Assembly (NCBI GenBank): GCA_017512495.1
Contig: JAFWGF010000004.1
Coordinates: 1-43,228 of the forward strand
From: Bacilli bacterium
GTDB lineage: Bacteria > Bacillota_I > Bacilli_A > RF39 > UBA660
Direction: 5' to 3'
DNA length: 43,228 nt
Part shown: piece after piece, positions 331-18,558 of the stretch
Numbering within the stretch: the first letter of the stretch is position 1
Layout: the number at the start of each line of letters is the position of its first letter
Notes under the pieces: model-generated
The model's database searches: none
What the model saw: only the letters and a program-made list of their open reading frames with translations
Told to the model about the DNA's origin: nothing
Translations under genes and position numbers: made by a program

Positions 331-1224
331 GTGATTTTAAATATAAGTGGTAGAACTGATATAGTTGCATTCTATTCAGATTGGTTAATGAATCGATTAG
401 AAGAAGGTTTTGTTGATGTAAGGAATCCATTTAATCCAACAATGATAAGTAGAATAATGATGGATGATGTTGATTTGTTGTTCTTTTGTACTAAGAATCC
501 TATACCAATCATAGATAAGTTAAAAGATATAAATAAGAAAATGTATTTTCATATTACTTTAACACCATATAAGAAAGATATAGAACCTAATTTACCACCA
601 AAAAAAGATATTATTGAAGCTATAAAAAAAATATCTAAAATAGTAGGAAAAGATAATTTAGTAATTAGATATGATCCTATATTTATTAATGATAAATATA
701 CGTTGAATTATCATATAAAAGCTTTTGATAAATTATGTGGTCTGTTAGATGGTTATGTAGAAAAAATATTAATATCATTTATTGATGATTATAAGAATGT
801 AAGAAATAATTATAAAATATTAAAATATCGACAATTAACTGAAAACGATTATAAAGTTATTGGAACAAGTTTTAGTAAAAGCGCAAAAAATCATAATATA
901 AAAGTTCATACTTGTGCTGAAATTCATAACTTAGTAGAATATGGTTTTATTAAAGATGAATGTATGTCTAAAGAACTAGCTTTAAAACTAACAGGTAAAA
1001 AGTACAAAAAATGGAATGCTAGAAAGAATGTCCCCTGTGAATGTGTTGAAATGGCTGATATAGGAGTATATAATTCTTGTAAGCATTTTTGTAAGTACTG
1101 CTATGCTAATTATGATGAAAAGCAAGTAAATACTAATTATAATAAACATAATCCAAAATCATCATTATTAACTGGTGAATTAAATGAAGATGATATTATA
1201 AAAGTTAGAAAAAATAACTTATAA
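331..1224 (+). CDS. DUF1848 family protein, radical-SAM-like iron-sulfur protein
   Basis: This 297-residue protein shows the hallmarks of DUF1848: the N-terminal SGRTDIVAFYSDWL and DVRNPFNP segments, then VIRYDPI in the middle. The C-terminal cysteine cluster C250-x3-C254-x2-C257 (CKHFCKYC) looks like a 4Fe-4S site of the radical-SAM/spore-photoproduct-lyase type, here unusually at the C-terminus, with further cysteines at C236 and C238. The reaction is not known for the family. GTG at 331 is the start because aggagg ends 7 nt upstream; the overlapping ATG at 329 is out of frame. It is followed 165 nt later, with its own promoter, by the large twin-HEPN-like gene, and both lie between the 34-bp repeats. 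Confidence 0.8.
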   Translation: MILNISGRTDIVAFYSDWLMNRLEEGFVDVRNPFNPTMISRIMMDDVDLLFFCTKNPIPIIDKLKDINKKMYFHITLTPYKKDIEPNLPPKKDIIEAIKKISKIVGKDNLVIRYDPIFINDKYTLNYHIKAFDKLCGLLDGYVEKILISFIDDYKNVRNNYKILKYRQLTENDYKVIGTSFSKSAKNHNIKVHTCAEIHNLVEYGFIKDECMSKELALKLTGKKYKKWNARKNVPCECVEMADIGVYNSCKHFCKYCYANYDEKQVNTNYNKHNPKSSLLTGELNEDDIIKVRKNNL

Positions 1225-1350
1225 GATTTAGATATTGAGATTTTAGAAAAATCATAAATAATAGTTTCCAGTAAATTAATAAAAGTAAATTATAATATTT
1301 ATTTAAATGGTATGAATAATTGATTGTCAAAATGAAAAAAAATCAAAAGT

Positions 1351-1361
1351 TATGATATAAT
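1351..1361 (+). promoter_or_regulatory. Extended -10 promoter for the 1008-residue protein
   Basis: TATGATATAAT. The Shine-Dalgarno downstream is weak (ggtgag at 1379-1384). A TTGTCA at 1324 is too far away (26 bp) to act as a normal -35. The rest of 1225-1389 is AT-rich with no gene visible. Confidence 0.6.
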
Positions 1362-1389
1362 TATTTATGAAAGAATTTGGTGAGATTTT

Positions 1390-4300
1390 ATGGGTTTATA
1401 TAATTTAGTTAATTCTATTGTGACCTCACAAAGTGAAGAAGATGCAAAAGAATTATTAATGGGAAGTAATATATTATTATTGAATAATAAAGAATACTAT
1501 AATGCAATAATATCAAATTTCATTCAAAAAAAAGAGACAATAATAAAAAAAGAAAATGGTAAAATTGTATTTGATTTGAATAATACAACTGATATTTGGA
1601 ATATAATATTTATAAGTGAATATATAAAAGAGAATGACATTTTATATAAAACATATAATAATCTTTTACTAGAAATAGTTAATATTGAAGGTCAATTATT
1701 GGTAATAAAAAACAAACATAAAACCGCTAAATCAAAAGAAGAACATGCAGCTATAAATACAGAATATCAAAATCTAAATAATGTTTTATCTGCTAAAAAG
1801 AATCAAAGAGACAGTATGAGTGGTGTGATAGAAACATTCTATAGAACCGATTGGATAGAACTTGTTAACACAAATAGTAAAATTGAACAAATGCAGGAAA
1901 TAAACGTTCTAAAGCAAGCTATAAATATAATTCATAAAGTAAGAAATAGCCTTGAACATGATAATATAGATATTGATAAGATAATTGAATTAGATAATGA
2001 TAACTTTAAAATATCCATTCCAATTGAATATTTAGACGGCTTTAATAAAGGAAAAATAATAGCTAATGATGAAGATAGAGTTATAGTAGAAAGAACAAAT
2101 CTAATAGCTCTACCACTCCTAAGTGAATTAAATTGTAATATAGATTCATTACAAAGTATATTTTATAATATAGAGCCAGATTTTTTATCACTACTTCTTG
2201 AAAAATATAATTACAATATAAAAGATATATATAAATTATCAAGAGGTATTTTAAAAAATAGTCAGAAAACAAAGGAATTACTTAATAAAGGAATAGATAT
2301 TGAACTTATTGAAAAAATTCCATATATGGTGGCTGATTCATTTACAAGTACACAAGAAATTATTGATATGATAAATTATTTGACCAAAGAGAATATGCTG
2401 GATAAAATAGGAAAAATCACTCCATATGCTTTTAAAAACGCTGATATTTTAGACATATATTTAAAAAACGGAATCGATTTAGATATTATAAATAGTTTTG
2501 AATGGGGAGCATTTGTTAATCCTTTATATGCAATTTCATTACTTGAAAAAGTTAATATATTAAAAGAAAATGGCATTAATTTTTCAAAATTAATAAAAAG
2601 ATTTTCAAACAAGAGGGATGTTAATAGAATACCCTTTGACTATGCAAAAGAAATAATTAGATTTACAAATAGATTAAAGGAAAATAATATACCCATTGAG
2701 GTATTATATGATGAAAATTTACTAAAAGAGGAATTGTTTGAAAATAGTGAAAACTTTAAAAAAATGTATATGGAAGATGACGTTTTTATTCCATTAATTA
2801 GACCTGTTTTTTGGTTTGCAATTTCCACTGATGGAAAAAGTTTTGATCCAAACAATTGGATAGTAGATGAGTTAACTAAAAATGGAATTAAACATAATGA
2901 AATAGGTATTTATGGTCAAAATTTTGAAAAACTTAAAACTGTATTAATCAATAATAATCTATATCCAATGAGTGAAGATAATAATAATACTTATATAGCA
3001 CTAGAATTATTACGAGTAATGGAATACTTAGATAAAGAGGGTACATTTTATGAAAACGTTTCAATCTTTGATAATATAAGTTATTTAGTTAAAAATGGAG
3101 TAAATATTGAAATAATAGATTCAATGTCAATCGATGCAATAGTAAATGCTAAACAAACATTGTTTTTTATACAACAAGGAATTCGTTACGATGAAATAGC
3201 AAAAATTCCAGCATCTGGTTATAGGTATCCAAAAGAAACCATAACTTTCATTAAATTTTTAAAAGAAAATGATTTATCTTTAGAAATAGTAAATGATGAT
3301 TTGTTTCTGTATCCTTTGAATTCAATTAATTTATTAAAATCAATTCCAAAAGATAAAATGCATATTGTTAGAAGTCTATCAGAATTGTCAATTTCTAATA
3401 TTGATGAAACAATAGAAATAATTAATACACTTACAGAGTATAATATAAATTTTGATAATATATCTTTGAATTTTATTGAAGGAGCAGAATCGTCAATCTC
3501 TTTAATTAAATGGTTAGAAGAAAAAAAATATAATATAAGAGTTCTAGAAAAACTTCCAGCATGTGCTTTCTTTAGGTTTAATGAAATGGATCAATTGCAA
3601 AATATATTAAAATATTTTGAACAATCCTGGAAGAAATATGAAAATTTACCTGATAATGGAAAAAGTTATCTAGAACAAACAGAGGAAGTAATAGAAGTTT
3701 TATTTAATAATGGATATACAGTTGATAAAGAAATCCCTACAAAAATATTTAGTGTTCCTAATGTTAAAGATCAAAATATTGAGTATTTATTAAAGTTAGT
3801 TAATTATGAATATAAAAAATTAGATGAGTTTCCAGATGAATTTTACACATGTAATTATGAAATATTAGAACACATGTGTAAAAATTATAATTACAATTTA
3901 TGTAAAAGTATTTTTGGGCTAGATAATCCAAAATTAATAGCAACATTAATATATGGAAATTCTGTATTTAGTCAATATCAAAAACAAAATCAAGACGACT
4001 TATTAATTGACATAGATCCAATAACAATAATTCATGCTGGATTTAATACAAGCATGATGTATAAGAATAGTATAAATGTTAGTGACTGGAATCAAGAAAC
4101 ATATCTTGCAAGATTTATAAATGATGAGAACCAGCAACCTCGTGATAATATTGAAATGAAAAGGTACATATTAGATAAGTTTAGAAATGCATTTGCTCAC
4201 TTTAGATTTAAACCTGTTATAGACAATAATGGTGAAATAGTAACTGATAAAATTCATATTTATGATAAATATGATGAAAGCAATGATACAAATTTTGATA

Positions 4301-4416
4301 TTATTTTAGATATAAAAGACTTTGTTGAAATAACTCGACAAGTAGAAAAAGGTTTACTTCAGAAAAAAGACGAAATGTTCGATATTAATGAAGAAAACAG
4401 ATTTAAAAAAAGATAA
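1390..4416 (+). CDS. Large unrecognised protein: HEPN-like domain, helical-repeat solenoid, second HEPN-like domain
   Basis: I do not recognise a named family for this 1008-residue soluble protein. Two RX4H motifs typical of HEPN domains are visible: R185-NSLE-H190 (context HKVRNSLEHDN) and R932-NAFA-H937 (context LDKFRNAFAHFRF). Each is followed by a short strand-rich stretch ending in a helix (ISIPIEYLDGF; IILDIKDFVEITRQVEKGL), which suggests the same fold twice. Residues 90-140 are probably coiled coil. Roughly residues 260-800 hold about ten repeats spaced 34-38 residues apart with a core like L-x-(K/E)-N-G-I-x-(I/L)-x-x-(I/L) (LNKGIDIELIEKI, LKNGIDLDIINSF, LVKNGVNIEIIDSM), consistent with an alpha-solenoid. 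HEPN proteins of this motif are often RNases in toxin-antitoxin or phage defence; that function is inferred, not shown. No signal peptide or membrane segment. Confidence 0.55.
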   Translation: MGLYNLVNSIVTSQSEEDAKELLMGSNILLLNNKEYYNAIISNFIQKKETIIKKENGKIVFDLNNTTDIWNIIFISEYIKENDILYKTYNNLLLEIVNIEGQLLVIKNKHKTAKSKEEHAAINTEYQNLNNVLSAKKNQRDSMSGVIETFYRTDWIELVNTNSKIEQMQEINVLKQAINIIHKVRNSLEHDNIDIDKIIELDNDNFKISIPIEYLDGFNKGKIIANDEDRVIVERTNLIALPLLSELNCNIDSLQSIFYNIEPDFLSLLLEKYNYNIKDIYKLSRGILKNSQKTKELLNKGIDIELIEKIPYMVADSFTSTQEIIDMINYLTKENMLDKIGKITPYAFKNADILDIYLKNGIDLDIINSFEWGAFVNPLYAISLLEKVNILKENGINFSKLIKRFSNKRDVNRIPFDYAKEIIRFTNRLKENNIPIEVLYDENLLKEELFENSENFKKMYMEDDVFIPLIRPVFWFAISTDGKSFDPNNWIVDELTKNGIKHNEIGIYGQNFEKLKTVLINNNLYPMSEDNNNTYIALELLRVMEYLDKEGTFYENVSIFDNISYLVKNGVNIEIIDSMSIDAIVNAKQTLFFIQQGIRYDEIAKIPASGYRYPKETITFIKFLKENDLSLEIVNDDLFLYPLNSINLLKSIPKDKMHIVRSLSELSISNIDETIEIINTLTEYNINFDNISLNFIEGAESSISLIKWLEEKKYNIRVLEKLPACAFFRFNEMDQLQNILKYFEQSWKKYENLPDNGKSYLEQTEEVIEVLFNNGYTVDKEIPTKIFSVPNVKDQNIEYLLKLVNYEYKKLDEFPDEFYTCNYEILEHMCKNYNYNLCKSIFGLDNPKLIATLIYGNSVFSQYQKQNQDDLLIDIDPITIIHAGFNTSMMYKNSINVSDWNQETYLARFINDENQQPRDNIEMKRYILDKFRNAFAHFRFKPVIDNNGEIVTDKIHIYDKYDESNDTNFDIILDIKDFVEITRQVEKGLLQKKDEMFDINEENRFKKR

Positions 4417-4486
4417 TATCGTGAAAAAACATCTTTACTACAATGCTCAAATATAATTAAGTTATGTTAGTCTTATATAGAGTTAG

Positions 4487-4520
4487 GCTGTAGTCAAAGT
4501 AAAAAATAATAAGTAATTAA
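4487..4520 (+). repeat. Degenerate direct repeat, copy B
   Basis: Partner of 209-242 (30 of 34 identical). It lies just downstream of the twin-HEPN-like gene and just upstream of terminator 4528-4551, the same order as in copy A. Confidence 0.6.
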
Positions 4521-4527
4521 AAATTGT

Positions 4528-4551
4528 GACTAGAGAAATCTAGTCTTTTTT
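4528..4551 (+). terminator. Intrinsic terminator, CTAG family
   Basis: GACTAGA - GAAA loop - TCTAGTC, 7 bp, followed by six T. It separates the 1008-residue gene from the WYL regulator. Confidence 0.85.
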
Positions 4552-4561
4552 ATGGTATAAT
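4551..4561 (+). promoter_or_regulatory. Extended -10 promoter for the WYL regulator
   Basis: TATGGTATAAT directly abuts the T-tract of the preceding terminator. The start codon is 16 nt beyond the -10, so the predicted leader is about 10 nt. Confidence 0.65.
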
Positions 4562-4577
4562 TTATAGAGGTGATAAT

Positions 4578-5054
4578 ATGTCTAAATTGTCTAATGTACT
4601 TATGATGTTACAATTACTTCAGAATAAAAGAAAATATAGTATAAAAGAATTAGCCGAGAAATTAGAAGTATCTCCAAGAATGATAAGACAATATAAAGAT
4701 GAATTAGAATATGCAGGTATTTATATTGAAACAATATATGGACCTTATGGAGGATATGTGTTAAATCAAGATGTTAAAATACCTGAAAAATTTATCAAAC
4801 CAAAAAATATTAAATTAGATAATAGAGAATATTATAACTTATTAAGTAAATGTATTAACAGTCATAATAAATGCTATATAGAGTATTACTCAAAAGAACA
4901 TGATAAAATTACTAAGAGAGTAATTAGACCATATAATTTAATGGTATTAGATAATGAATGGGGAGTAGCAGCTTATTGTGAAAACAAACAAGAAATAAGA
5001 CATTTTTATCTAGATAGAATTAGTAAATTAGAAGTACTAGATGAAAAATATTAA
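4578..5054 (+). CDS. Compact HTH-WYL transcriptional regulator
   Basis: Residues 1-60 form an HTH_11/DeoR-type winged helix (YSIKELAEKLEVSPRMIRQYKDEL) ending in the wing motif YGPYGGYVL. Residues 85-158 are a WYL domain (IEYYSKEHDKITKRVIRPY, then DNEWGVAAYC and HFYLDRISKLEVL). In the WYL signature the tryptophan is kept but YL is replaced by GV. At 158 residues it is half the usual length of YafY/WYL regulators, because the linker between domains and the C-terminal WCX extension are missing. WYL domains bind nucleotides or nucleic acid, and several WYL regulators control phage-defence operons. Neighbours are a HEPN-like gene upstream and a HAD-NADAR gene downstream, with an inverted repeat in between. 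Targets are not known. Confidence 0.85.
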   Translation: MSKLSNVLMMLQLLQNKRKYSIKELAEKLEVSPRMIRQYKDELEYAGIYIETIYGPYGGYVLNQDVKIPEKFIKPKNIKLDNREYYNLLSKCINSHNKCYIEYYSKEHDKITKRVIRPYNLMVLDNEWGVAAYCENKQEIRHFYLDRISKLEVLDEKY

Positions 5055-5073
5055 TGTGACATAAATACTTCCA

Positions 5074-5097
5074 CATAATATAGTAAAGTATATTATG
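5074..5097. promoter_or_regulatory. Inverted repeat, candidate operator upstream of HAD-NADAR
   Basis: CATAATATA - gtaaag - TATATTATG, a perfect 9-bp inverted repeat with a 6-bp centre, in the 59-bp gap between the WYL regulator and the HAD-NADAR gene. It could be an operator for the neighbouring regulator or an mRNA hairpin just ahead of the Shine-Dalgarno (aaaggaag). No classical promoter is otherwise obvious here. Confidence 0.5.
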
Positions 5098-5113
5098 AAA
5101 GGAAGATGATCGT

Positions 5114-6112
5114 ATGACGTATATTGATTTTGATGGTGTTATATTAGATACTGAAGATTTAATGTTTGAAGAATGGAGAAAGATTCCTAATAGACATTCA
5201 TTATCGGAAACTGAGAAAATAGAATATCTAAAGCATGTTGATTGGAATTATGTTTTAAAAAATGCTGAACCTATTAATAATTCTATTAAATATTTAAAAC
5301 TTATGGATTCAAAAAATACTTTTATACTTACGAAAGTTCATTCATTAGAAGAAGGAACAGCAAAAATAAATTGGGTTAAAGAACAAAATATTAGACTTAG
5401 AGTAATATTAGTACCATATTACTTAAGAAAATGTGATGTTGTAGACCCTAGTGATAGTGTTTTAATTGATGATTGTTTAAATACTCTACGTGAATGGGAA
5501 GAGAATAATGGTAAAGTGATTTTTTTCGATAAAGATAATGATAATTGTGATAGTTGGCATGAGCAAAATGTAAATAACTATAAATGTATAGATAATTTAG
5601 CTGAATTCGTAAATATGAATAATCAAGTTAAACTTGATCAATATAGAGATATTTGGATGTCAGAAAAATTTGATGATGTTATAGGATTTTATCCAAGAGA
5701 GTTTTATCCATTAGATAATTTTTCATCATTTAAAGTGGAAGTAGATGGATATTTATATGCTTCTTTAGAAGAAGCATTTCAAAGTTCATTATTTTTACCT
5801 GATTATCCTGGAATAGCAGAACGAATTAAGAATAGTCATTCGGCACATGAAGCTCAAAAGATTATGTTTGCTAATATTGATAAAGTAAAATATTCAAATG
5901 AAGAACAAGTTACTATAATGGAAAAGTTACTTAGGTTAAAAATAGAACAAAATCCATACGTTTTGAAAAAATTACTAGAAACTAAGAATTACTTAATAGT
6001 AGAGGATTCTCCAAAAGATAATTTTTGGGGATGGGGAATAAATAGAGATGGTCAAAATCAATTAGGAAAGTTATGGATGAAATTAAGAGAAGAATTAAGA
6101 AATAAAGACTAG
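5114..6112 (+). CDS. HAD-like phosphatase fused to a NADAR domain
   Basis: Residues 1-175 are a HAD-superfamily domain. The catalytic DxD motif is IDFDGVILDTE near the N-terminus, and LIDDCLNTLREWEENNGKVIFF carries the distal acidic pair, resembling 5'(3')-deoxyribonucleotidase-type HADs. Residues 195-330 are a NADAR (YbiA-like) domain: VDGYLYASLEEAFQ, SHSAHEAQKIMF, then the signature EDSPKDNFWGWG and GQNQLGKLWMKLR. NADAR proteins hydrolyse ADP-ribose linkages, including ADP-ribose on guanine in DNA, and some act as antitoxins to DarT-type toxins. The fusion suggests two-step removal or recycling of an ADP-ribosylated or phosphorylated nucleotide; that is inference. Its TAG stop sits inside the terminator stem. 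Confidence 0.85.
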   Translation: MTYIDFDGVILDTEDLMFEEWRKIPNRHSLSETEKIEYLKHVDWNYVLKNAEPINNSIKYLKLMDSKNTFILTKVHSLEEGTAKINWVKEQNIRLRVILVPYYLRKCDVVDPSDSVLIDDCLNTLREWEENNGKVIFFDKDNDNCDSWHEQNVNNYKCIDNLAEFVNMNNQVKLDQYRDIWMSEKFDDVIGFYPREFYPLDNFSSFKVEVDGYLYASLEEAFQSSLFLPDYPGIAERIKNSHSAHEAQKIMFANIDKVKYSNEEQVTIMEKLLRLKIEQNPYVLKKLLETKNYLIVEDSPKDNFWGWGINRDGQNQLGKLWMKLREELRNKD

Positions 6113-6130
6113 GATATCTAGTCTTTTTTT
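6106..6130 (+). terminator. Intrinsic terminator containing the HAD-NADAR stop codon
   Basis: AGACTAG - gatat - CTAGTCT, then seven T. The stop TAG (6110-6112) is the last triplet of the 5' arm. Confidence 0.88.
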
Positions 6131-6131
6131 G

Positions 6132-6140
6132 TGATATAAT
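6132..6140 (+). promoter_or_regulatory. Extended -10 promoter
   Basis: TGATATAAT immediately after the terminator T-run. The predicted leader to the GTG at 6161 is about 14 nt. Confidence 0.65.
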
Positions 6141-6160
6141 AGTTTACGGAGAGTGATAGA

Positions 6161-6487
6161 GTGAGTTTTACAATTAATATTTATTATAAAGGAAAAAATG
6201 GTTCTGCTAGGGAATTTGCTAATGAAATGATTTCTTCTGGAATAGTAGAAGAAATAAGAAGTAAAAGTGGTAATCTAAGATATGAATATTTTGAACCAAT
6301 GGATGATAAAGAGACAATATTACTTATTGATAGTTGGGAGAATCAAGATGCACTTGATAAACATCATAAATCAGATATTATGAATAAAATAATGGAATTA
6401 AGAAATAAATATGATTTACATATGAAAGTAGAAAAATATGTTTTGGATGATAGTAATAAACAAGATGAAAAATATATAAGAAAGTAG
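6161..6487 (+). CDS. Antibiotic-biosynthesis monooxygenase (ABM) domain protein, putative quinol monooxygenase
   Basis: A 108-residue single-domain protein with the dimeric alpha-beta barrel ABM pattern: a first strand followed by a helix (SAREFANEMISSGIVEEIRSK), then YEYFEPMDDKETILLIDSW and the conserved NQDALDKHHKSD helix. Relatives include YgiN-like quinol monooxygenases and heme-degrading enzymes. No heme-ligand pattern is clear, so the substrate is open. The start is GTG, with an imperfect Shine-Dalgarno (ggagagtgat). It leads a short run with the GNAT-YoaP gene 8 nt downstream. Confidence 0.8.
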   Translation: MSFTINIYYKGKNGSAREFANEMISSGIVEEIRSKSGNLRYEYFEPMDDKETILLIDSWENQDALDKHHKSDIMNKIMELRNKYDLHMKVEKYVLDDSNKQDEKYIRK

Positions 6488-6495
6488 GAATAAGT

Positions 6496-7239
6496 ATGAA
6501 TGAGTATATTAATTTAGATGAAAAAAATATTGATGAAGAGCACATTTGCTGTGCAATTGGTGATCCTAAACATCAAGATGGCGTAGACAAAAAGAAAGAA
6601 TGGATCAAAAGTAAATTGAAAGATGGCCATGTATTTAGAAAGTTAAATGCAAGAGGTAAAATCTTCATTGAATATGAACCAATTGAAACAGCTTGGGCTC
6701 CTATTAATGGTAAAAACTATATGTATATTTATTGTTTATGGGTAGCAGGTAGTTTTAAAGGAAAAGGTATTGGTAAAGAATTATTAGAATATGCTATAGA
6801 AGATGCTAAAAAGAAAAAAATGAGTGGTATTTGTACAATAGTTACTCAAAAGAAAAAACCATTTATTGGTGATAAGAAATTTTTTGAACATTTTGGATTT
6901 AAAGTAGTAGATACTATTAATGACTATGAATTGATGGTATTACAATTTGATGATAAAGAAATACCTAAATTTAATGACAATGCTCGTAAGATGGAAATTG
7001 ATAGTCAAGACTTTACTATTTATTATTCTAATGAATGTCCTTATGTAGAATATGAAGTAAAAGAATTATCTGATTATGCTAAAGAAAAAGGTATTAAATT
7101 GAACTTTGTAAAGATAGATACACTGGAAAAAGCTAAAAATGCTCCATGTATAATTAATAACTGGGCTAACTTTTATAAAGGAAAATTTATATCAAATACA
7201 ATTCTTAATGCTAATGCATTTGCAAAATTATTAAAATAA
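6496..7239 (+). CDS. GNAT N-acetyltransferase with C-terminal YoaP domain
   Basis: This is the two-domain architecture seen in YoaP-like acetyltransferases. Residues 1-150 are a GNAT fold with the acetyl-CoA loop VAGSFKGKGIGKELLEYA and the terminal KKFFEHFGFKVVDT. Residues 165-247 are the YoaP domain, a thioredoxin-like fold with YYSNECPYVEYEVKELSDYA, FVKIDTLEKAKNAPCIINNW and FYKGKFISN. Only the first cysteine of a CxxC-like position is present (CPYV). The substrate is unknown. It lies 8 nt after the ABM gene and so is probably co-transcribed with it. Confidence 0.88.
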   Translation: MNEYINLDEKNIDEEHICCAIGDPKHQDGVDKKKEWIKSKLKDGHVFRKLNARGKIFIEYEPIETAWAPINGKNYMYIYCLWVAGSFKGKGIGKELLEYAIEDAKKKKMSGICTIVTQKKKPFIGDKKFFEHFGFKVVDTINDYELMVLQFDDKEIPKFNDNARKMEIDSQDFTIYYSNECPYVEYEVKELSDYAKEKGIKLNFVKIDTLEKAKNAPCIINNWANFYKGKFISNTILNANAFAKLLK

Positions 7240-7263
7240 TTATAATAATGATTAGGTGATATT

Positions 7264-7803
7264 ATGAAAACAACACTTAAATATTTTGTTCATGGAACTA
7301 CTTATGATAATGCTAGTAAAAAATGTTCTGGATGGAAACAAGTACAATTAACTGATTTAGGAAAAGAACAAGCAGCAAATTTAGGAAAGATTAATTCTGA
7401 TATTAAATTTGATGTTATTTTTACATCTGATTTAATAAGAGCAATTGATAGTGCTAATATAGCATTTCCCAATGTAGAAAAGATTCAAGATGAAAGACTT
7501 AGAGAATGCAATTATGGTGATTTGGATGGAATGGATAAAAACTTAATAGTATATGAAGATCACATTGATGAGCCTTTTCCAAATGGTGAATCATTAAAAG
7601 ATGTCGAACAAAGAATTAGAAGTTTTATTGATGACATAAAAAAAGAATATCAAGGAAAAACAATTGGAATAGTTGCTCATCGTGCACCACAATTAGCTTT
7701 TGAAGTAATCACTAAGAATATTAGTTGGGAAGAAGCAAATAAAAATGATTGGCGAAAAACTGGAGATTGGCAACCAGGATGGGAATATACAATAAAAATG
7801 TAA
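7264..7803 (+). CDS. Histidine phosphatase superfamily protein with VHG in place of RHG
   Basis: The phosphoglycerate-mutase-like fold is shown by FVHGTTYDN, the SGW...LTDLGKEQAANLG helix, FTSDLIRAIDSA, the acid motif DERLRECNYGDLDG and the second catalytic histidine in GIVAHRAPQLAFE. The nucleophile His is kept, but the arginine of the usual RHG motif is valine. That is recurrent in a small Bacillota subfamily, so the gene is probably not a degraded copy. The substrate, probably a small phosphometabolite, is not predictable. Its Shine-Dalgarno is taggtgat. A TATAAT at 7241-7246 could give it a separate short-leader transcript. Confidence 0.82.
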   Translation: MKTTLKYFVHGTTYDNASKKCSGWKQVQLTDLGKEQAANLGKINSDIKFDVIFTSDLIRAIDSANIAFPNVEKIQDERLRECNYGDLDGMDKNLIVYEDHIDEPFPNGESLKDVEQRIRSFIDDIKKEYQGKTIGIVAHRAPQLAFEVITKNISWEEANKNDWRKTGDWQPGWEYTIKM

Positions 7804-7815
7804 GATATGATTATA

Positions 7816-7842
7816 AAAACTCAGAGTAATCTGAGTTTTTTT
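7816..7842. terminator. Bidirectional terminator between convergent genes
   Basis: AAAACTCAG - agtaat - CTGAGTTTT with A- and T-tracts on both sides. It serves the phosphatase (+) and the kinase-like gene (-), whose stop codon begins at its edge. Confidence 0.88.
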
Positions 7843-8539
7843 ATTTAAAATATTTCTTTTGTAATACTTTTTCTGCATCATCAAGAGTAGTAATAGGTTG
7901 ATCTGTTAAGTTTTCAATACTTGATTTTAACCATCTAAGATAAGAACTAGGATTAGCCAATTTATCTAAATCTCCAACATACCCATATTGTTCAGCTATT
8001 TCTCTATATTTCATAATATCTTCCAGCAAAAAAGAGTAAATACGATTCATCACTTCATATAAATTGTCTTCCTTATAATTTCTACCCGACAAATATAAAT
8101 AAGGTAAAGTATCTATAATTTTAAAAGAAATTTCATCATAAATTATATTTCCACAATGGAAATCTTTTATTAAAATACCTTGACTAGAAATAGAATTCAA
8201 ACTATCTGTTACAACTTGTAATTGATCACTTAAGAGGTTAATTTTTTGATTGAGAGGTTTGCATTTAGATAGACTAGTACCATGAGCATATTCCATTATA
8301 ACAGCACGAACATAATTGCCTACATAAGCACAATTTTTAGCAAATATAAAAGAAGATGAATCTATATCTTTAAATTGTAATACATAATCAGGATAATAAT
8401 CTGAATATAATAGTTTAATTACAGAGTTATCATCTAACAAAAAGCAAGTTCCATCTTTACCATAACCTAATGATTTTACTTTATGCTTATCTATATATTG
8501 TTGTAAAGTATTTAAATTGTTAAAATGTAAATCTTTCAT
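7841..8539 (-). CDS. Small atypical protein-kinase-like protein
   Basis: A 232-residue soluble protein with a minimal kinase pattern: glycine loop LGYGKDGTCFLL, the lysine in SVIKLLY, hinge IMEYAHG, catalytic loop ILIKDFHCGNIIYD (the D and N of the HxDxxxxN motif kept, the first His replaced by K/I), and IIDT in place of DFG. This is the layout of aminoglycoside-phosphotransferase or RIO/ABC1-like kinases rather than Hanks kinases. The substrate could be a protein or a small molecule. It is one of only two minus-strand genes and has its own strong promoter. Confidence 0.75.
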   Translation of the reverse strand: MKDLHFNNLNTLQQYIDKHKVKSLGYGKDGTCFLLDDNSVIKLLYSDYYPDYVLQFKDIDSSSFIFAKNCAYVGNYVRAVIMEYAHGTSLSKCKPLNQKINLLSDQLQVVTDSLNSISSQGILIKDFHCGNIIYDEISFKIIDTLPYLYLSGRNYKEDNLYEVMNRIYSFLLEDIMKYREIAEQYGYVGDLDKLANPSSYLRWLKSSIENLTDQPITTLDDAEKVLQKKYFK

Positions 8540-8557
8540 ATATACCTCATTCCAGAT

Positions 8558-8586
8558 ATTATATGTTTATTTTTAACTTTTGTAAA
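8558..8586 (-). promoter_or_regulatory. Sigma-A promoter for the minus-strand kinase-like gene
   Basis: On the minus strand, TTTACA (8586-8581), a 17-bp spacer and TATAAT (8563-8558). The transcript start is near 8551, giving a leader of about 12 nt with Shine-Dalgarno gagg. Confidence 0.8.
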
Positions 8587-8617
8587 GAAAGTAAATGTTT
8601 TAAAAAGTAGTTGCTTT

Positions 8618-8626
8618 TGATATAAT
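8618..8626 (+). promoter_or_regulatory. Extended -10 promoter for the amylase
   Basis: TGATATAAT, then aaggagg at 8630-8636 and ATG at 8644. It is divergent from the kinase promoter within a 104-bp gap. Confidence 0.7.
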
Positions 8627-8643
8627 TATAAGGAGGTTAAAAT

Positions 8644-10488
8644 ATGTTAGATGATATACAATTTGATTTAGAAAAGATAGAAACAATTAATAATAATTCG
8701 ACTAAATACAGGGTAACAACCAAAATACCACTTTCCTTAGGTTGGGTTCAAAGAATGAACTTTATTGTAGAAGATAATGAAAGAAGAATTAATTTTAATA
8801 TGAATCATACTAAGAATACTGATCGATATGCTTATTTTGAAACAGAATTAGTATTAGATACTAGTGCTTTATATCATTATTATTTTTCTTTTGAAGCTAA
8901 TAATAAATTTATGTATTATAAGAAACATAATAATAGTAATTACAATCAAATTAATACTGAAGATATGTGGAAGTTAAGCGTTAATTTTGAAGTACCAGAC
9001 TGGGCTAAAGGAAAAATTATGTATCATATATTTGTAGATAGATTTAATCGTACCGAAATACCTAAAGATATGCCGCATCGTACTATTCATAAATCTTGGG
9101 ATGAAGATATTGTAGTTGGACCAAATGATGAAGGTATTTGGAATGCTGATTTTTATGGAGGTAATTTACAAGGAATTATAAATAAATTAGATTATATAAA
9201 ATCTTTAGGAGTTAGTATAATCTATTTAAGTCCAATTGTTTGGTCACAATCTAATCATCGTTATGATGCTGCTGACTATGAGAATGTTGATCCTTATTTA
9301 GGTACAAATAAAGATTTAAAAGAGCTCTGTGATAAGGCTCATGAATTAGATATGAAAATTGTTTTAGATGCTGTATTTAATCATACTGGTAATGACAGTA
9401 AATATTTTAATCAATATAGTCATTTTAATAATATAGGTGCTTATCAAAGTAGTGATTCTAAATACTATGACTTTTATCGTAAATATATTGTAAATAATCA
9501 AACATTCTTTGATTACTGGTGGGGTATGAAGAATTTACCAGTATGTGATGGTAATTCAAAAATTTGGCAAGACTATATTTACGGTGAAGGTGGCATAATT
9601 GATTTATGGTTTGATTTAGGCATCGATGGATTAAGATTAGATGTTGCGGATGAATTATCTGATGACTTTATTGAAGGTATAAGAAAAGCAGTTAAAAGAA
9701 ATAAAGATGATGGATTTATCTTAGGAGAAGTATGGAAGAATCCTATGCGTATGAATAGGGGATATATATCTTCCGGTAAAGGAATGGATACTGTAATGAA
9801 TTATACCTTAGTAGATGCTTTAATAAGATACATTAAATATCGTGATGTATATAAATTACATGATGCTTTAAAACAGTTAAAGATAGAATATCCTGATGAT
9901 ACTATTAATAGTTTGATGAATTTTACTTCTACTCATGATATAAGTAGAGCTATTAATATATTTGGAACTAGAGAATTTCAATACAATGAAGAATGGGCTT
10001 GGAATTTATCTAACAACAATATTTATTGGCAAAAAGATTATAAATTATCTAAAGAAGATTATGAATTAGGGAAGGATATCTATAAAGCTTATTTATATAC
10101 TTTAGCATATCTTCCCGGTATTTTATCAATCTTCTATGGAGATGAAGTAGGATTACAAGGTATGGGTAATTTAGCTAATAGAAGACCTTTTCCATGGAAT
10201 AATATAGATGAAGATTTATTGGAATTTGTTAGAGATATTGGAAAGATTAGAACTAGTGAAAAATATTTAGAAACAGCTGATTTTGATATTATAGATATAA
10301 ATGATAGATATTTTATGTTTACTCGTACTAATAAAGATGATCAAGTATTATTCACAATGAATAGATCTAGTAATAAAAGTAATATATTGATTCCTAGAAT
10401 GTATCGAGATTATAATATTATTCATAGTTATAAAGATACAAATAAAGAAGAAATAGATAGTCATGGAGTATTAGTATTAAAAAAATAA
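8644..10488 (+). CDS. Glycoside hydrolase family 13 alpha-amylase / neopullulanase-type enzyme
   Basis: A 614-residue protein without a signal peptide, hence probably cytoplasmic breakdown of maltodextrins. Residues 1-105 are a beta-rich N-terminal domain (CBM34-like), as in cyclomaltodextrinases and neopullulanases. The (beta/alpha)8 barrel starts at [12 protein letters not shown]13 regions are all visible: region I DAVFNH, region [12 protein letters not shown] with nucleophile D333, region III ILGEVW with acid/base E362, region IV FTSTHD with D432. A small C-terminal beta domain follows. It is preceded by a strong aaggagg Shine-Dalgarno. No transporter or maltose regulator is adjacent, and no clear terminator follows. 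Confidence 0.93.
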
Positions 10489-10507
10489 GAAAGTAGAAGT
10501 CTAGTTT

Positions 10508-10536
10508 TTGACTTGATTTGTTCTTATTGCTATAAT
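10508..10536 (+). promoter_or_regulatory. Sigma-A promoter for the 116-residue protein
   Basis: TTGACT, 17-bp spacer, TATAAT. Because the -10 lies inside any longer reading frame from the TTG at 10513, translation must start downstream, at the ATG at 10564. Confidence 0.8.
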
Positions 10537-10563
10537 AAATTTACAATGTTTGAGGAGAATATT

Positions 10564-10914
10564 ATGGAAGATTACTATAGTTTAAATTATATGCAAGTTA
10601 TGATGTATATGCATAAAATAGATGAAATAAGAAAAAGTGATCCATTTTTTGATGAATCAATTGTTGTAATATTTGAAAATTATGTAGTTGATAGAACTGC
10701 AGAAATTGCAATTGATAGTATTGGATTTAATCCATTAGTTGATAAAAAATATCGTATTACTAAGAGTCTGTTTGAATACTTAAACTGTTTAACTGGCGTA
10801 GATGTATTTGATAAAAAAGAAGTAAAAGAATTTAAAAGTATATATGAATCAGAAATAGAAGAAATATCAGATGAAAAGTTTATAAGAGTTAAAAAGAGAA
10901 ATTTAGCAAATTAA
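10564..10914 (+). CDS. Hypothetical acidic protein, 116 residues
   Basis: I do not recognise a family. The protein is soluble, rich in Asp, Glu, Ile and Tyr, with helix-prone segments (MQVMMYMHKIDEIRKS, SLFEYLNCLTGVDVFDKKEVKEF). ATG 10564 is chosen because it follows tgaggag at a normal distance and lies downstream of the promoter -10; upstream in-frame TTG and ATG codons have no ribosome site. It sits 17 nt ahead of the metallophosphoesterase and is probably co-transcribed with it. Confidence 0.7.
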   Translation: MEDYYSLNYMQVMMYMHKIDEIRKSDPFFDESIVVIFENYVVDRTAEIAIDSIGFNPLVDKKYRITKSLFEYLNCLTGVDVFDKKEVKEFKSIYESEIEEISDEKFIRVKKRNLAN

Positions 10915-10931
10915 AGAACAAGAGGTGTACT

Positions 10932-11858
10932 ATGAATAAACCATCAGATATGTTACAGGTTAGAGAAAGTATTATTTATAATAAGAATGTCGAAAATGAT
11001 ATTAAAATTGCTAGTGTTGGAGATATTCATATATCTAAATCAGTTGGAGAAAAAGATATTAATAATATTTATGAGTCTTTAGCTAGAGAAGAACCTGATT
11101 ATGTTTGTTTACTTGGAGATATAATTGATTCACCAAAAGAGTTAACTAAACGTTTTGATGATTTAGAGAAACTAATTAAGAGTTGTTCTTCTATTGCTCC
11201 TACAATGATAGTTTTAGGTGGACATGATTTTATTTATGATGTTCCTGATTTATCAGACGAATCTAATGTTTGGGGTAAACTTAATCAGTTATCAGAGGTA
11301 TACATTTTAAATGACGAAATATATAGTGATGATAAAATAATTATAGGTGGATATATTCAAAAAGAAGATGTCTATAATAATCGTTATGATAAACATACTG
11401 AAGATGCGATTGCATTTTATATAGATTTGATGCAGCATCCTGATCTTTATTCTGGATTAAGAGAAGATTTGCCTAAAGTATTTCTTACTCATTCGCCCGC
11501 AACAATTAATGATAATAGAATAAAAAGTCAATTAAGTGCGTATGACGTTATTATAACTGGCCACTATCATAATGGATGTGTTCCAGCAATGTTAGAGAAT
11601 ATCTATCCTAAGAATGCTGGTATTATTACACCAAAATTAAAGATGTTTCCTAAACAAGCTAGAGGAGTTGTTAGATTAGATACCGGAACTTATTTAATAT
11701 ATAGTGGTGGTTGGATTAAATTATCTGCTGGATCACCATTACTATTTCATCCACTTGATATGCTTTGTAATAGACAAATTGATGTTACTACATTAACTTC
11801 TAATGAAGAATATATGAATGAGAGTGTTAAAACTAAAAAATTAGTTCTTAAAAAATAG
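10932..11858 (+). CDS. Calcineurin-like metallophosphoesterase
   Basis: All five metal-binding blocks of the superfamily are recognisable in this 308-residue protein: VGDIHIS (GDxH), LLGDIID (GDxxD), LGGHDF in place of GNHD, LTHSP and ITGHYHNG (GHxH). The asparagine of GNH(D/E) is glycine, a notable change because it normally helps position the phosphate. There is no signal peptide and no membrane segment. The substrate is unknown; such proteins act on nucleotides, phosphoproteins or nucleic acid ends. The stop TAG overlaps the first bases of the terminator stem. Confidence 0.88.
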   Translation: MNKPSDMLQVRESIIYNKNVENDIKIASVGDIHISKSVGEKDINNIYESLAREEPDYVCLLGDIIDSPKELTKRFDDLEKLIKSCSSIAPTMIVLGGHDFIYDVPDLSDESNVWGKLNQLSEVYILNDEIYSDDKIIIGGYIQKEDVYNNRYDKHTEDAIAFYIDLMQHPDLYSGLREDLPKVFLTHSPATINDNRIKSQLSAYDVIITGHYHNGCVPAMLENIYPKNAGIITPKLKMFPKQARGVVRLDTGTYLIYSGGWIKLSAGSPLLFHPLDMLCNRQIDVTTLTSNEEYMNESVKTKKLVLKK

Positions 11859-11879
11859 ACTAGAACAATCTAGTCTTTT
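11857..11879 (+). terminator. Intrinsic terminator, CTAG family
   Basis: AGACTAGA - acaa - TCTAGTCT, 8 bp, then TTT. The stop codon TAG (11856-11858) overlaps its first two bases. Confidence 0.82.
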
Positions 11880-11880
11880 A

Positions 11881-11909
11881 TTGACAAATTATATGTTTTT
11901 TTGTAGAAT
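11881..11909 (+). promoter_or_regulatory. Sigma-A promoter directly after the terminator
   Basis: TTGACA, 17-bp spacer, TAGAAT. The -35 begins one base after the terminator. Confidence 0.8.
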
Positions 11910-11934
11910 ATTATGTGCTTTTTAGGGGGTATAT

Positions 11935-12534
11935 ATGAATAAATTATTTGATAATAGTCATTTTATCGCAATGCAATTTAACAAATCAAAAAATTTAAAT
12001 AGTCATTTATTTGGCTTTAAAAATTATAATATACCAAAACAAAAAAATGTTGTTCAGGTATTTCCTAATGATGATATAAGTACTTGGGATGAGGTCCTAA
12101 AATATATTGAATTTTTGAATAGTAAAAATGTATTTGAAAGTATATCTGTAGCTTGCCTTAGTGAAGAATTATTTTGTGATATTTTTGGATTTAGTGAACA
12201 AGAATATAAGGAATATATAGATTATGGTTCAAAAGAAATGAAATCTGCATGTGTTGAGGAAGACTTCCAATGGTTTGAATATACTGAACCATATGAACTT
12301 AAAATACGCTATAGAATTCCTAAAGAATTAGTGTTTGGTTCAATTGTACGTAACAAAAGTGGAGAATTAGGATTTATTGCTAATAAGAATTATATAGATA
12401 ATTTGAATGATGATGAAAAGAATGAATTTATTGAACTATATAGAGAATTAATATTAAATGAAGTGCGAAATGAAGATTTAGATGATAAATATGCTTTTCG
12501 TGATATTAAGAAATTTAAGGCTAGAGAAATCTAG
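11935..12534 (+). CDS. Hypothetical protein, 199 residues
   Basis: I do not recognise a family. It is soluble with mixed alpha/beta composition: an N-terminal stretch with NYNIPKQKNVVQVFPNDD, a central helical segment (WDEVLKYIEFLNS, FSEQEYKEYIDYGSKEM) and a charged C-terminus rich in Asp, Glu and Lys. It has its own promoter and a strong Shine-Dalgarno (aggggg). The last codons (AREI-stop) are written by the terminator hairpin itself, so the terminator has apparently trimmed or fixed the C-terminus. Confidence 0.7.
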   Translation: MNKLFDNSHFIAMQFNKSKNLNSHLFGFKNYNIPKQKNVVQVFPNDDISTWDEVLKYIEFLNSKNVFESISVACLSEELFCDIFGFSEQEYKEYIDYGSKEMKSACVEEDFQWFEYTEPYELKIRYRIPKELVFGSIVRNKSGELGFIANKNYIDNLNDDEKNEFIELYRELILNEVRNEDLDDKYAFRDIKKFKAREI

Positions 12535-12542
12535 TCTTTTTT
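12519..12542 (+). terminator. Intrinsic terminator, CTAG family, encoding the C-terminus of the preceding protein
   Basis: GGCTAGA - GAAA - TCTAGTC followed by six T. The stop TAG (12532-12534) is in the 3' arm. The stem-loop is identical to that at 21400-21417. Confidence 0.85.
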
Positions 12543-12552
12543 ATGTTATAAT
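12542..12552 (+). promoter_or_regulatory. Possible upstream promoter of the two-component operon
   Basis: TATGTTATAAT after the terminator T-run, in the same arrangement as other promoters here. If used, the leader to the regulator would be about 100 nt, unusually long for this window. Confidence 0.5.
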
Positions 12553-12606
12553 TAAAAAGAGATTTGATTATTAAAAAGAAATGATATTGTGTTATAAATA
12601 AAAAGT

Positions 12607-12628
12607 TTTAATATTCATTTAATATTCA
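12607..12628 (+). promoter_or_regulatory. Tandem 11-bp operator (putative response-regulator box)
   Basis: Two perfect head-to-tail copies of TTTAATATTCA. A tandem direct repeat with 11-bp period is the classic binding site of OmpR/PhoB-family regulators, and it lies 10 bp ahead of a -10-like TATATT (12639-12644), replacing the -35. A related pair lies at 14638-14659. The second unit also overlaps a small inverted repeat, ATTCATTT...AAATGAAT. Confidence 0.7.
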
Positions 12629-12659
12629 AATGAATAATTATATTTGAGGTGATAAAACT

Positions 12660-13349
12660 ATGCGAATATTGATTGTTGAAGATGAAGAATCACTTGCAGA
12701 ATTAGTCGCAAATAGATTAAAGAAAGAGAAATATACTGTTGATATTGCCAATGATGGAGAAGAAGGACTTTACAATGCATTAGAAGATTTATATGATCTT
12801 ATAATACTTGATATAATGCTTCCTAATATTAATGGTATTGATATATTAAAAGAAATTAAGAAGAATAATATAAAGTCTAAAGTAATAATGTTAACAGCTA
12901 AGTCTGAATTAGAAGATAAACTACTGGGATTTAGTGAAGGTGCTAATGATTATATTCCAAAACCATTTCATATTGATGAAGTAGTCGCAAGAGTTAATGC
13001 TCAATTAAGAATTGAAAAAATTAAGAATAACAATCTTGAATTTGGAGATTTGATTCTTGATTTAAAAACATCCGATATTATTAACAAGAATAATAATGAA
13101 AAGATAAATATTATTAATAAAGAATTTCAATTGTTAGAATATTTTATGAATAATCCTAATCAAGTATTATCTAAAGAAATGATATATGATAAAGTATGGG
13201 GATTAGAAAATGATTCTATTTCTAATAATTTAGAAGCTTATTTATCATTCATTAGAAAAAAATTAAAACTTATTAATTCAAATGTTCAGATAAAAGCTTT
13301 AAGAAATTTAGGTTATAAGATGGAGTATAAAGATGAAAGAACTAAATAG
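12660..13349 (+). CDS. OmpR/PhoB-family response regulator
   Basis: The receiver domain (1-115) has acidic pocket E7-D8-E9, phosphoacceptor D51 in LIILDIMLP, T79 and K101 in YIPKPF. The winged-helix DNA-binding domain (125-229) has the usual FQLLEYFMNNPNQVLSKEMI and ending RNLGYKME. Length 229 is normal. Shine-Dalgarno gaggtgat precedes the ATG. The gene overlaps the histidine kinase by 17 nt, so the two are translationally coupled. The tandem 11-bp repeat upstream suggests that it regulates itself. Confidence 0.95.
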   Translation: MRILIVEDEESLAELVANRLKKEKYTVDIANDGEEGLYNALEDLYDLIILDIMLPNINGIDILKEIKKNNIKSKVIMLTAKSELEDKLLGFSEGANDYIPKPFHIDEVVARVNAQLRIEKIKNNNLEFGDLILDLKTSDIINKNNNEKINIINKEFQLLEYFMNNPNQVLSKEMIYDKVWGLENDSISNNLEAYLSFIRKKLKLINSNVQIKALRNLGYKMEYKDERTK

Positions 13350-14547
13350 AAAAGTATTTAATACAATATTCATAATCTTATCAGTATTTATATTTATTAT
13401 TGTTTTTATATATAATGTAGAAATATATAGAAGAGAATATAGTGCTGTACAGCGAAATTTAAGCTTCATGGAAGAAAGAATTACTAAACCAAATTATAGA
13501 AATCCAATTATCGATGATGAACAAGATGATAGAGGCTTTGAAAATATGATGATTATGGATTATGAAGTATATACAGTTATATTAAGTGATGGAGAAATTG
13601 AAAGAATTATTAGTCATAGTAGTAATACCAGTGATTTTGATGTTCAAAGTATTGCAGAGAAAATTATTACTAAAAAACAAGGAATAAAGATTGGGAGTTT
13701 ATATAATAACAAGTATTCTTACAATTATTATTTAGATACAATAATTATTATCAATACCAAGAATATTAATGATAGATTAATACTTATATTAATTAAGTCA
13801 CTTATAATCTTATTAATAGTTGAAATTATGGTTTGTTATATTTCTAAAATGTTAACTGAGAGAATTACTAAGCCAGCTCAAGAATCGTTTGAGAAACAAA
13901 AAGATTTTATCGCAGATGCTTCACATGAACTTAAAACACCTCTCGCAGTAATAATGGCATCTTCAGATGAATTAAAAAGTGATAAAAAGAATTCTAAATA
14001 TGTTGACAATATCAAGTATGAATCTGAAAGAATGAATAATTTAATTAAGAGTTTATTAGATTTATCTAAATTAGAAAATGGCATATCTATTGCTAATTAT
14101 AAAGAAGAAAATATCTCAAAGATTATTGAGAGAATATGTTTAACCTTTGAGGCAATTGCTTTTGAAAATAATGTTACTATTGATACTAATATTGAAAAAG
14201 ATGTAATACTTAAATGTAGTAAAGAAGAAATAGAAAGATTAATATCAATAATATTAGATAATGCTATTAAACATAGTTATAAAGATTCTATTATTAAAGT
14301 TAATCTAAACAAGGATAAGAATAATATAAATTTAGAAATAACAAACAGTGGAGATCCAATAAAAATTGGTGATGAAGAAAAAATATTTGAAAGATTTTAT
14401 CGAGCAGATAAATCTAGAAAAAGAGATTCTAACAGATATGGTTTAGGACTTGCTATTGCAAAGAATATAGTTACTAATCATAATGGTACAATTAAAGCTT
14501 TTTCTAAAGATGGATTGACGACATTTAAAATAAATATAAAAAAATAA
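13333..14547 (+). CDS. Sensor histidine kinase, partner of the response regulator
   Basis: A 404-residue membrane kinase with TM1 at about 8-28, an extracytoplasmic loop of about 120 residues, TM2 at about 149-170, dimerisation/phosphoacceptor helix with H198 in DASHELKTPL, N box ILDNAIKHS, F box IFERFYRADKS and G2 box RYGLGLAIA. The sensor loop is rich in charged residues (IDDEQDDRGFENMM) and has no recognised sensor fold. A full HAMP domain is not evident between TM2 and the H box. The signal is unknown; the adjacent surface-protein operon suggests an envelope or surface cue. Confidence 0.95.
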   Translation: MKELNRKVFNTIFIILSVFIFIIVFIYNVEIYRREYSAVQRNLSFMEERITKPNYRNPIIDDEQDDRGFENMMIMDYEVYTVILSDGEIERIISHSSNTSDFDVQSIAEKIITKKQGIKIGSLYNNKYSYNYYLDTIIIINTKNINDRLILILIKSLIILLIVEIMVCYISKMLTERITKPAQESFEKQKDFIADASHELKTPLAVIMASSDELKSDKKNSKYVDNIKYESERMNNLIKSLLDLSKLENGISIANYKEENISKIIERICLTFEAIAFENNVTIDTNIEKDVILKCSKEEIERLISIILDNAIKHSYKDSIIKVNLNKDKNNINLEITNSGDPIKIGDEEKIFERFYRADKSRKRDSNRYGLGLAIAKNIVTNHNGTIKAFSKDGLTTFKINIKK

Positions 14548-14577
14548 GAACATTAATTAATATTTAATGTTCTTTTA
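14546..14577 (+). terminator. Intrinsic terminator after the histidine kinase
   Basis: AAGAACATTAA - 7-base loop - TTAATGTTCTT, 11 bp, with a T-rich but interrupted tail. It separates the two-component operon from the surface-protein operon. Confidence 0.75.
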
Positions 14578-14637
14578 ATTTTTATTAAGTACTATTATCT
14601 TGTAGAAAGGAGAAATGATATATAAGAAAAAATTATA

Positions 14638-14659
14638 TTTAATATTCGTTTAATTTTAC
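14638..14659 (+). promoter_or_regulatory. Second tandem 11-bp operator, upstream of the surface-protein operon
   Basis: TTTAATATTCG followed directly by TTTAATTTTAC. The first unit matches the box at 12607 in 10 of 11 bases and the second in 8 or 9. A TATATA -10 candidate lies 12 bp downstream (14672-14677). Best explanation: the response regulator at 12660 controls this operon. Confidence 0.6.
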
Positions 14660-14693
14660 GATGGTAAAGTTTATATAGAAAAGGAGATGATAT

Positions 14694-14723
14694 ATGAATA
14701 AATTTAAAGACTTCAAGGATTAA
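14694..14723 (+). CDS. Possible 9-residue leader peptide ORF
   Basis: ATG to TAA encoding MNKFKDFKD, preceded by a strong aaaggag at normal spacing. It lies between the putative operator and the first surface-protein gene. It may be a leader peptide, a translation enhancer, or the remnant of a truncated gene. The only support is the strong Shine-Dalgarno. Confidence 0.35.
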   Translation: MNKFKDFKD

Positions 14724-14773
14724 AAGAATAAAATAATATTAATATATATAAATAAAATGAATGGAGGTAATAA

Positions 14774-15076: not shown

Positions 15077-15090
15077 TTAGAAAGGAGAAT

Positions 15091-16434: not shown

Positions 16435-16436
16435 AA

Positions 16437-16465
16437 GAAAAGACTAGAGATTTCTAGTCTTTTTG
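16437..16465. terminator. Intrinsic terminator, CTAG family
   Basis: AAAAGACTAGA - gatt - TCTAGTCTTTT, with A- and T-tracts on both sides so it could work in both directions. Confidence 0.88.
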
Positions 16466-16475
16466 TTATCATTAA

Positions 16476-16486
16476 TATGTTATAAT
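16476..16486 (+). promoter_or_regulatory. Extended -10 promoter for the CDF transporter
   Basis: TATGTTATAAT; predicted leader about 10 nt (ATG at 16503). Confidence 0.65.
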
Positions 16487-16502
16487 AAGTTAGAGGTGTA
16501 AC

Positions 16503-17615: not shown

Positions 17616-17624
17616 GAGGATTAT

Positions 17625-18557: not shown

Positions 18558-18558
18558 G

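Follow-up and report, generated by a model that had tools for sequence, protein, structure and literature searches.

Many WYL regulators have been described as repressors. Two WYL activators, SiwR and PafBC, invite comparison with the locus treated here. SiwR of Mycobacterium smegmatis controls adjacent enzyme genes (PMC10693628), as the WYL regulator would do here, and both systems have a palindrome in the promoter and a conserved triplet at -26 (GGA in SiwR, KCC here, which is GGM on the other strand). The SiwR genes are however divergent and the targets DinB/YfiT-like (PMC10693628), whereas the present target lies downstream on the same strand and is exchanged for others in relatives, and the regulator is only about 158-200 aa long. 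PafBC is likewise a WYL activator, which employs a -26 element together with sigma adaptation where promoters lack a normal -35 contact, but it is a regulon-wide DNA-damage heterodimer (PMC11804915), whereas here one regulator gene stands before one adjoining promoter.

The nearest published idea is that of ARG-centred systems under WYL or Nudix control (PMC9503650), in which a WYL regulator occurs with an HAD nucleotidase and sometimes with NADAR; here, however, no ARG domain was seen among the 10 genes scanned, and the main partners are SIS, Ham1 and CYTH. NADAR takes ADP-ribose off guanine or cleaves riboflavin intermediates, and the ybiA gene of E. coli sits in a LexA-controlled operon (PMC11125620). 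The domain found here aligns with YbiA (PDB 2b3w) and has retained the glutamate that precedes the YWG/FWG motif, but it is fused to an HAD domain, and an adjacent ADP-ribosyltransferase gene, as expected of the DarT1-NADAR and YarT-YbiA toxin-antitoxin pairs, was not seen among the 10 genes scanned (one of which, an orphan, has no domain assignment). A literature search outside which most subscription journals fell yielded no paper joining the WYL domain, Ham1 and nucleotide and, within the same limit, none joining WYL, spacer, TTGACA and activator; on the gene neighbourhood of WYL with NADAR, or of WYL with an HAD nucleotidase, only PMC9503650 was relevant.

The locus and its neighbours

The window, by which we mean the whole stretch of 43,228 nucleotides analysed, is the entire contig C41 of a source genome of 1.37 Mb (51 contigs, 86% complete). 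Four adjoining open reading frames near its start were originally put forward as a candidate for one uncharacterised defence or stress system, and all four are present (Table 1). Pfam and PHROG matches uphold the assignments to DUF1848, WYL and HAD-NADAR, but the 1008-aa protein that had been taken to be HEPN-like has no significant domain or family match, Pfam included, only chance-level matches in the PDB, and an AlphaFold model, built from the single sequence, that is unusable (pLDDT 38). Its two RNxxxH motifs (RNSLEH, position 185; RNAFAH, position 932) agree with the Rx4-6H pattern of HEPN RNases, and of 20,000 sequences made by shuffling its residues 0.05% have at least two such motifs; from these motifs a HEPN relation is plausible, but no more. 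No relative of this orphan was found in the other family genomes (145 in all), in 395 genomes of the class, in plasmids, phages or viral contigs or, apart from itself, in the genome contig collection.

Table 1. Positions of the WYL unit, its elements and its neighbours in the window
Feature	Position	Strand	Basis or details
DUF1848 protein, neighbour outside the unit	331..1224	+	Pfam DUF1848, E 7e-89
1008-aa orphan with two RNxxxH motifs, neighbour outside the unit	1390..4416	+	Open reading frame, motif search
Terminator-like stem-loop parting the unit from the upstream orphan gene	4528..4545	+	Stem-loop scan; palindromes of this family recur in the window
Compact WYL transcription regulator (HTH + WYL, 158 aa)	4578..5054	+	Pfam WYL, HTH_11
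Conserved promoter after the WYL gene	5056..5089	+	GTGACA 5056-5061, ATACTTCC 5065-5072, -10-like TAAAGT 5084-5089
Inverted repeat CATAATATA / TATATTATG	5074-5082, 5089-5097 (5074..5097)	.	Read from the sequence; folding
HAD phosphatase (about residues 1-165) fused to YbiA-type NADAR (about 187-331)	5114..6112	+	Pfam, PHROG, motif reading
Terminator-like stem-loop at the end of the unit	6104..6126	+	Stem-loop scan

The DUF1848 protein, in which a CxxxCxxC motif (C-KHF-C-KY-C) can be read near the C-terminus, occurs in 66 of the 145 family genomes at locations other than those of the WYL cassette, and no paper joining DUF1848 with radical SAM came up in the same search, with most subscription journals outside it. 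Among 20 fetched DUF1848 loci none has the orphan, a WYL gene or HAD-NADAR, and among 40 loci fetched around WYL, NADAR or HAD matches none has DUF1848 or the orphan. The comparison of gene neighbourhoods that had been proposed as a check thus goes against DUF1848 and the HEPN-like protein and strongly in favour of WYL with HAD/NADAR, and the reservation that the grouping could be chance was justified for DUF1848 and the orphan, which these 60 loci confirm as chance neighbours of the cassette, but not for WYL with HAD-NADAR. Terminator-like stem-loops lie at 249-272 and at the two positions of Table 1 (6 were found in 6.3 kb as against 0.7 in shuffles), and because of these DUF1848 with the orphan and WYL with HAD-NADAR are regarded as separate blocks; the view that the genes are not one operon accordingly stands for the four together, but WYL and HAD-NADAR belong together. 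A near-identical palindrome, AAGACTAGA-N-TCTAGTCTT, is found at gene ends at six places in the window where 0.21 matches are expected (250-271, 4526-4547, 11856-11877, 12517-12538, 16440-16461 and 21398-21419, with 6104-6126 in addition), and it looks like one standard terminator used repeatedly across the source genome.

It is by now extremely improbable that all four genes make up one uncharacterised defence or stress system. They do adjoin in the window, and DUF1848 matches a DRT-associated PADLOC model, but the neighbourhoods of DUF1848 and WYL never mix in the 60 fetched loci, the orphan stands without a relative in 395 genomes and terminators split the block. A reverse transcriptase, as in DRT with a DUF1848 partner, is not among the 10 genes scanned, the window starting at base 1 of the contig, and a Pfam scan of these 10 genes found no BREX or CBASS core gene beside the WYL regulator. 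The four-gene combination does not exist as one system; there is instead a two-part cassette, different from what had been proposed. The set has one further genome of the same genus, G013, from which all four genes are absent, and since only two of the genes of 6113-18600 have strong matches there, on different contigs, no empty site can be read.

The WYL gene and the genes that follow it

The regulator has an N-terminal HTH_11 (40.2 bits, cut-off 25) and a WYL domain (E 1e-14, 54.6 bits, cut-off 21.8), both above the Pfam cut-offs as befits a WYL regulator, and relatives occur in 41 of the 145 family genomes. Most of the named loci that carry it belong to Bacilli assembled from rumen and gut metagenomes, and it is absent from the viral contigs searched. 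One WYL-SIS-Ham1 cassette (L206) stands in a record titled Candidatus Saccharibacteria of low coverage, which is probably mislabelled or a mixed bin.

A first set, comprising the window and fetched relatives (a part of the WYL matches in the 145 genomes), holds 37 WYL genes, and in 32 of the 35 cases with a readable next gene this gene is of a recognisable family (SIS 18, HAD/NADAR 8, Ham1 4, CYTH 1, HD_4 1); the other three are without an assigned family, and one of them is followed by a phosphoribosyltransferase gene. A second set, which overlaps the first in genomes, consists of the best 80 of 274 matching stretches in the genome contig collection and gave 80 named loci with 81 WYL genes, three of which were excluded because the next gene is unreadable. 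In all 78 readable cases from these best 80 of 274 the first downstream gene belongs to the SIS, Ham1, NADAR, CYTH or HAD families (SIS 38, Ham1 24, NADAR 6, CYTH 6, HAD 3 and Hydrolase_3 (Cof-type) HAD 1), and Ham1 lies directly 3' of SIS in 35 of the 38 SIS cases. It is thus well supported that the WYL gene and the enzyme gene following it are a real two-part cassette of regulator, promoter and enzyme.

The enzymes have furthermore been swapped under one regulator and promoter, since regulators 91-92% identical to that of the window precede NADAR or CYTH. When the next-gene label is mapped on a tree built from 105 WYL proteins, at least 26 changes are required, although many forks are weak and the starred branches by themselves force only 2-3 changes per large group, and the window's own clade of 14 members (SH-aLRT 100) is followed by NADAR (6), CYTH (3), HAD (3), Cof-type HAD (1) and HAD-NADAR (1). 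HAD or NADAR relatives occur in 71 of the 145 family genomes, and the arrangements with WYL form a series that runs from WYL-NADAR and WYL-HAD lying about 3 kb apart in G143 (L072), by way of WYL-HAD-NADAR as separate genes in G066 (L073), to the fusion in the window, which among the genomes examined was found in the source genome only. Three close NADAR relatives (L086, L087 and L088) have no directly preceding WYL gene and no such promoter in front.

Some arrangements deserve separate mention. In L092, L093, L094 and L095 a WYL gene, an HAD gene, a gene whose product (773-784 aa) has traces of HAD and phosphoribosyltransferase, and a gene for a PfkB-SIS fusion (about 650 aa) stand in a row, the HAD frame being broken and one more open reading frame intervening in L095; we read these rows as an uncharacterised nucleotide-sugar pathway of greater length that is governed by the same type of regulator. 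A GNAT-YoaP gene lies just below the unit in the window (6496-7239) and, in L101 and L102, immediately above the WYL gene, which may mark a shared insertion spot. In L072 (7169-10352) ORF6N and Bro-N genes of phage type precede and separate the two cassettes, hinting at mobility.

The promoter and the hairpin

About 55 nt behind the compact HTH-WYL gene come a conserved promoter and the enzyme gene. The gap after the WYL stop codon is almost constant and contains TGAC-RT-AAATAYTKCCTC-N-TGNTANNNT, that is a TGACA-like hexamer, an ATAYTKCC block around -26 and an extended -10, the spacer measuring 21-22 nt rather than 17. The pattern ATANNNC-N12-TANNNT is ungapped in 36 of 36 regulator 3' flanks, where the anchoring demanded ATANNNC and TANNNT at a fixed distance and lost 0 rows (a 37th flank, L100, is cut by the contig end and was left out), and the G at -14, which was no part of the anchoring, is present in 31 of the 36. 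A weight matrix found no site of at least 15 bits beyond these 36 in 856,799 bases, which include 20 DUF1848 loci, and 55 of 58 second-set sites not identical to any training site score at least 15 bits; L178 and L179 are readable cases below that score and L222 gave no promoter score. Matches to TTGACA at four or more of six positions occur at spacers of 16-18 in none of 95 distinct sites and at 20-22, mostly exactly 22, in 90, and for sites outside the training set the counts are 0 of 52 and 51 of 52 against a random background of 15%, a result that is only partly independent, as the motif model was trained on some of these loci and spans most of TGACA.

The promoter of the window has a spacer of 22 nt and a weight-matrix score of 22.2, but by its sequence it would be weaker than most, as its -10 is weak, has A at -14 in place of the G of most relatives and can alternatively be read as GTGACA-17-TATAGT (5079-5084), and this counts against the explanation that we favour below. 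A scan of the window with the standard promoter consensus was uninformative (71 found, 61.8 in shuffles). A regulon pattern matched 70 times in 145 genomes, as against 18 for a reversed control, and nine of the 30 matches fetched score at least 23 bits, eight of them behind a WYL gene and the ninth in L155; the pattern misses the window's own site and has two weak matches in the source genome (C3:8010 and C25:10825), so that a second target there is conceivable. L155 (1300-1550), with the promoter and the first codons of a SIS-like gene but no WYL gene, is a decayed cassette, and its promoter lies directly behind a gene with a GNAT-YoaP-like end part.

We lean towards the reading, in our view somewhat probable, that the WYL regulator acts locally, through the adjoining promoter, to induce a single house-cleaning enzyme, in this case the HAD phosphatase-NADAR. 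The unit 4578-6112 would then be one member of a cassette widespread in gut and rumen Bacilli, in which the small regulator made from the first gene would act on the promoter directly behind that gene and would probably activate it. Activation is favoured because the TGACA-like hexamer lies 21-22 nt upstream of the extended -10, too far for normal sigma-factor contact, and because the ATAYTKCC block lies around -26, where PafBC and SiwR work. The KCC block indeed occupies the place of their elements (PMC11804915, PMC10693628) and, judged by sequence, the promoters share with theirs a -26 element, an extended or weak -10 and the lack of a normally spaced -35. The same site could however be used by a repressor, and a WYL protein that locally represses the next gene until a ligand relieves the repression is an alternative, which we think rather unlikely. 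It would conform to the description of many WYL regulators and to the inverted repeat flanking the -10, but the centre of this repeat is not fixed at a single point from site to site, and a promoter that is poor by normal rules (spacer 21-22) is a better fit to one that is activated. For the ARG systems, too, WYL regulators are stated to be repressors (PMC9503650).

The inverted repeat is extended by TTCC (5069-5072) and GGAA (5101-5104) and as RNA would pair with the Shine-Dalgarno GGAAG at 5101-5105. On folding, 93 distinct sites have a mean z of -3.1, as against -0.45 for a control of 200 leaders that contain a ribosome-binding site, and this site is paired with the upstream TTCCTC arm in 80 of the 93 as against 60 of the 200. 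A hairpin of such strength may mean that control is exerted at the RNA level instead, the leader hairpin hiding the ribosome-binding site and the upstream conserved block binding a ligand or a protein, possibly the WYL protein itself with its Sm-like fold. The notion is strengthened when G-U pairs are allowed (z -2.6 versus -1.8), but the G-U share of pairs (14.9%) is not above that of shuffles (16.6%), RNAalifold gives no consensus structure over the sites, Rfam has no match here, fixed-centre pairing is weak, the letters and spacing of the promoter are the most constant features and the -10 is often located within the loop or close to it. RNA-level control is in our opinion quite improbable, and selection may act on the RNA or on the DNA repeat.

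The partner enzymes and their possible signal

The NADAR part of the enzyme in the window is clear (residues 197-329, E 3e-20, 73.4 bits, cut-off 35.1), and the HAD part matches a PHROG deoxyribonucleotidase (E 7e-10) and, just below the Pfam cut-off of 23.8, HAD_2 (residues 5-98, 23.1 bits). HAD phosphatases are defined by a DxD motif I, an S/T motif II and an acidic motif IV, and these can be read here as DFDGVILDT, ILT and LIDD. The NADAR sequence VED aligns with VEH of YbiA, so that the last-strand glutamate with a role in YbiA-family NADAR (PMC11125620) is present, its exact position being assigned by reading the alignment. The N-glycosidase could release ADP-ribose, or a ribosyl intermediate, and the phosphatase could dephosphorylate the product. 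The SIS protein has a model of pLDDT 89.6, and the solved structures that come closest to it in fold are phosphosugar isomerases, glucosamine-6-phosphate deaminases and the deglycases FrlB and FraB; a model for an archaeal sugar-phosphate isomerase is matched weakly by 27 of 30 SIS relatives. Ham1 clears away abnormal purine nucleotides, the substrates of CYTH enzymes are triphosphates and those of HAD enzymes phosphate esters. By their family names the partners would thus share the theme of repairing damaged nucleotides and sugar phosphates, but SIS enzymes act on many phosphosugars, which counts against the label of house-cleaning. Under the induction that we favour, the WYL domain would bind a signal, for which a fragment of nucleic acid or a nucleotide derivative arising from damage is the likeliest candidate, RNA polymerase would then start at the promoter and the enzyme gene or genes behind it would be transcribed, the enzyme being exchangeable and nearly always one expected to remove or remodel abnormal nucleotides or sugar phosphates (SIS with Ham1, Ham1 alone, CYTH, HAD or NADAR).

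A defence role of the cassette is possible but not supported, as the partners in relatives are Ham1, SIS, CYTH, HAD and NADAR and the 77 flanking genes show only scattered matches to defence models (raw matches, no control set). In its most specific form, which we take to be unlikely, the WYL protein would sense ADP-ribose-type signals of phage attack and induce NADAR and HAD, by which the modification would be stripped off and processed, in the manner of the ARG-centred systems (Iyer et al. 2022). The swapping of parts is typical of conflict systems and the phage-type genes adjoin the L072 copies, but most cassettes have SIS, Ham1 or CYTH, none of which is known to act on ADP-ribose, the flanking genes are mostly housekeeping, the regulator was not found in viral contigs, and neither an ADP-ribosyltransferase nor ARG is among the 10 genes scanned, which lie at this end of the window. 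The precedent lies in the WYL or Nudix regulators that accompany ARG, HAD 5' nucleotidases, HD phosphatases and occasionally NADAR, as described (PMC9503650).

Going beyond induction as such, the mini WYL sensor and its own promoter with over-long spacer could be a self-contained plug-in that places varied metabolite-repair enzymes (Ham1, SIS deglycase/isomerase-like, CYTH, NADAR and HAD) under one damage signal, the 5' arm of the hairpin, lying inside the promoter, keeping read-through RNA from the regulator gene untranslated so that only RNA from the induced promoter is translated; this we put forward tentatively and as somewhat unlikely. A vague guess at defence has in any case become a testable regulatory unit across many gut and rumen Bacilli, with a recognisable promoter signature for one small WYL clade. 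WYL sensing would hereby be tied to the repair of nucleotides and sugar phosphates, beyond DNA repair or phage defence alone, and the promoter signature would offer a cheap route to new repair enzymes, since any gene behind it would be a candidate.
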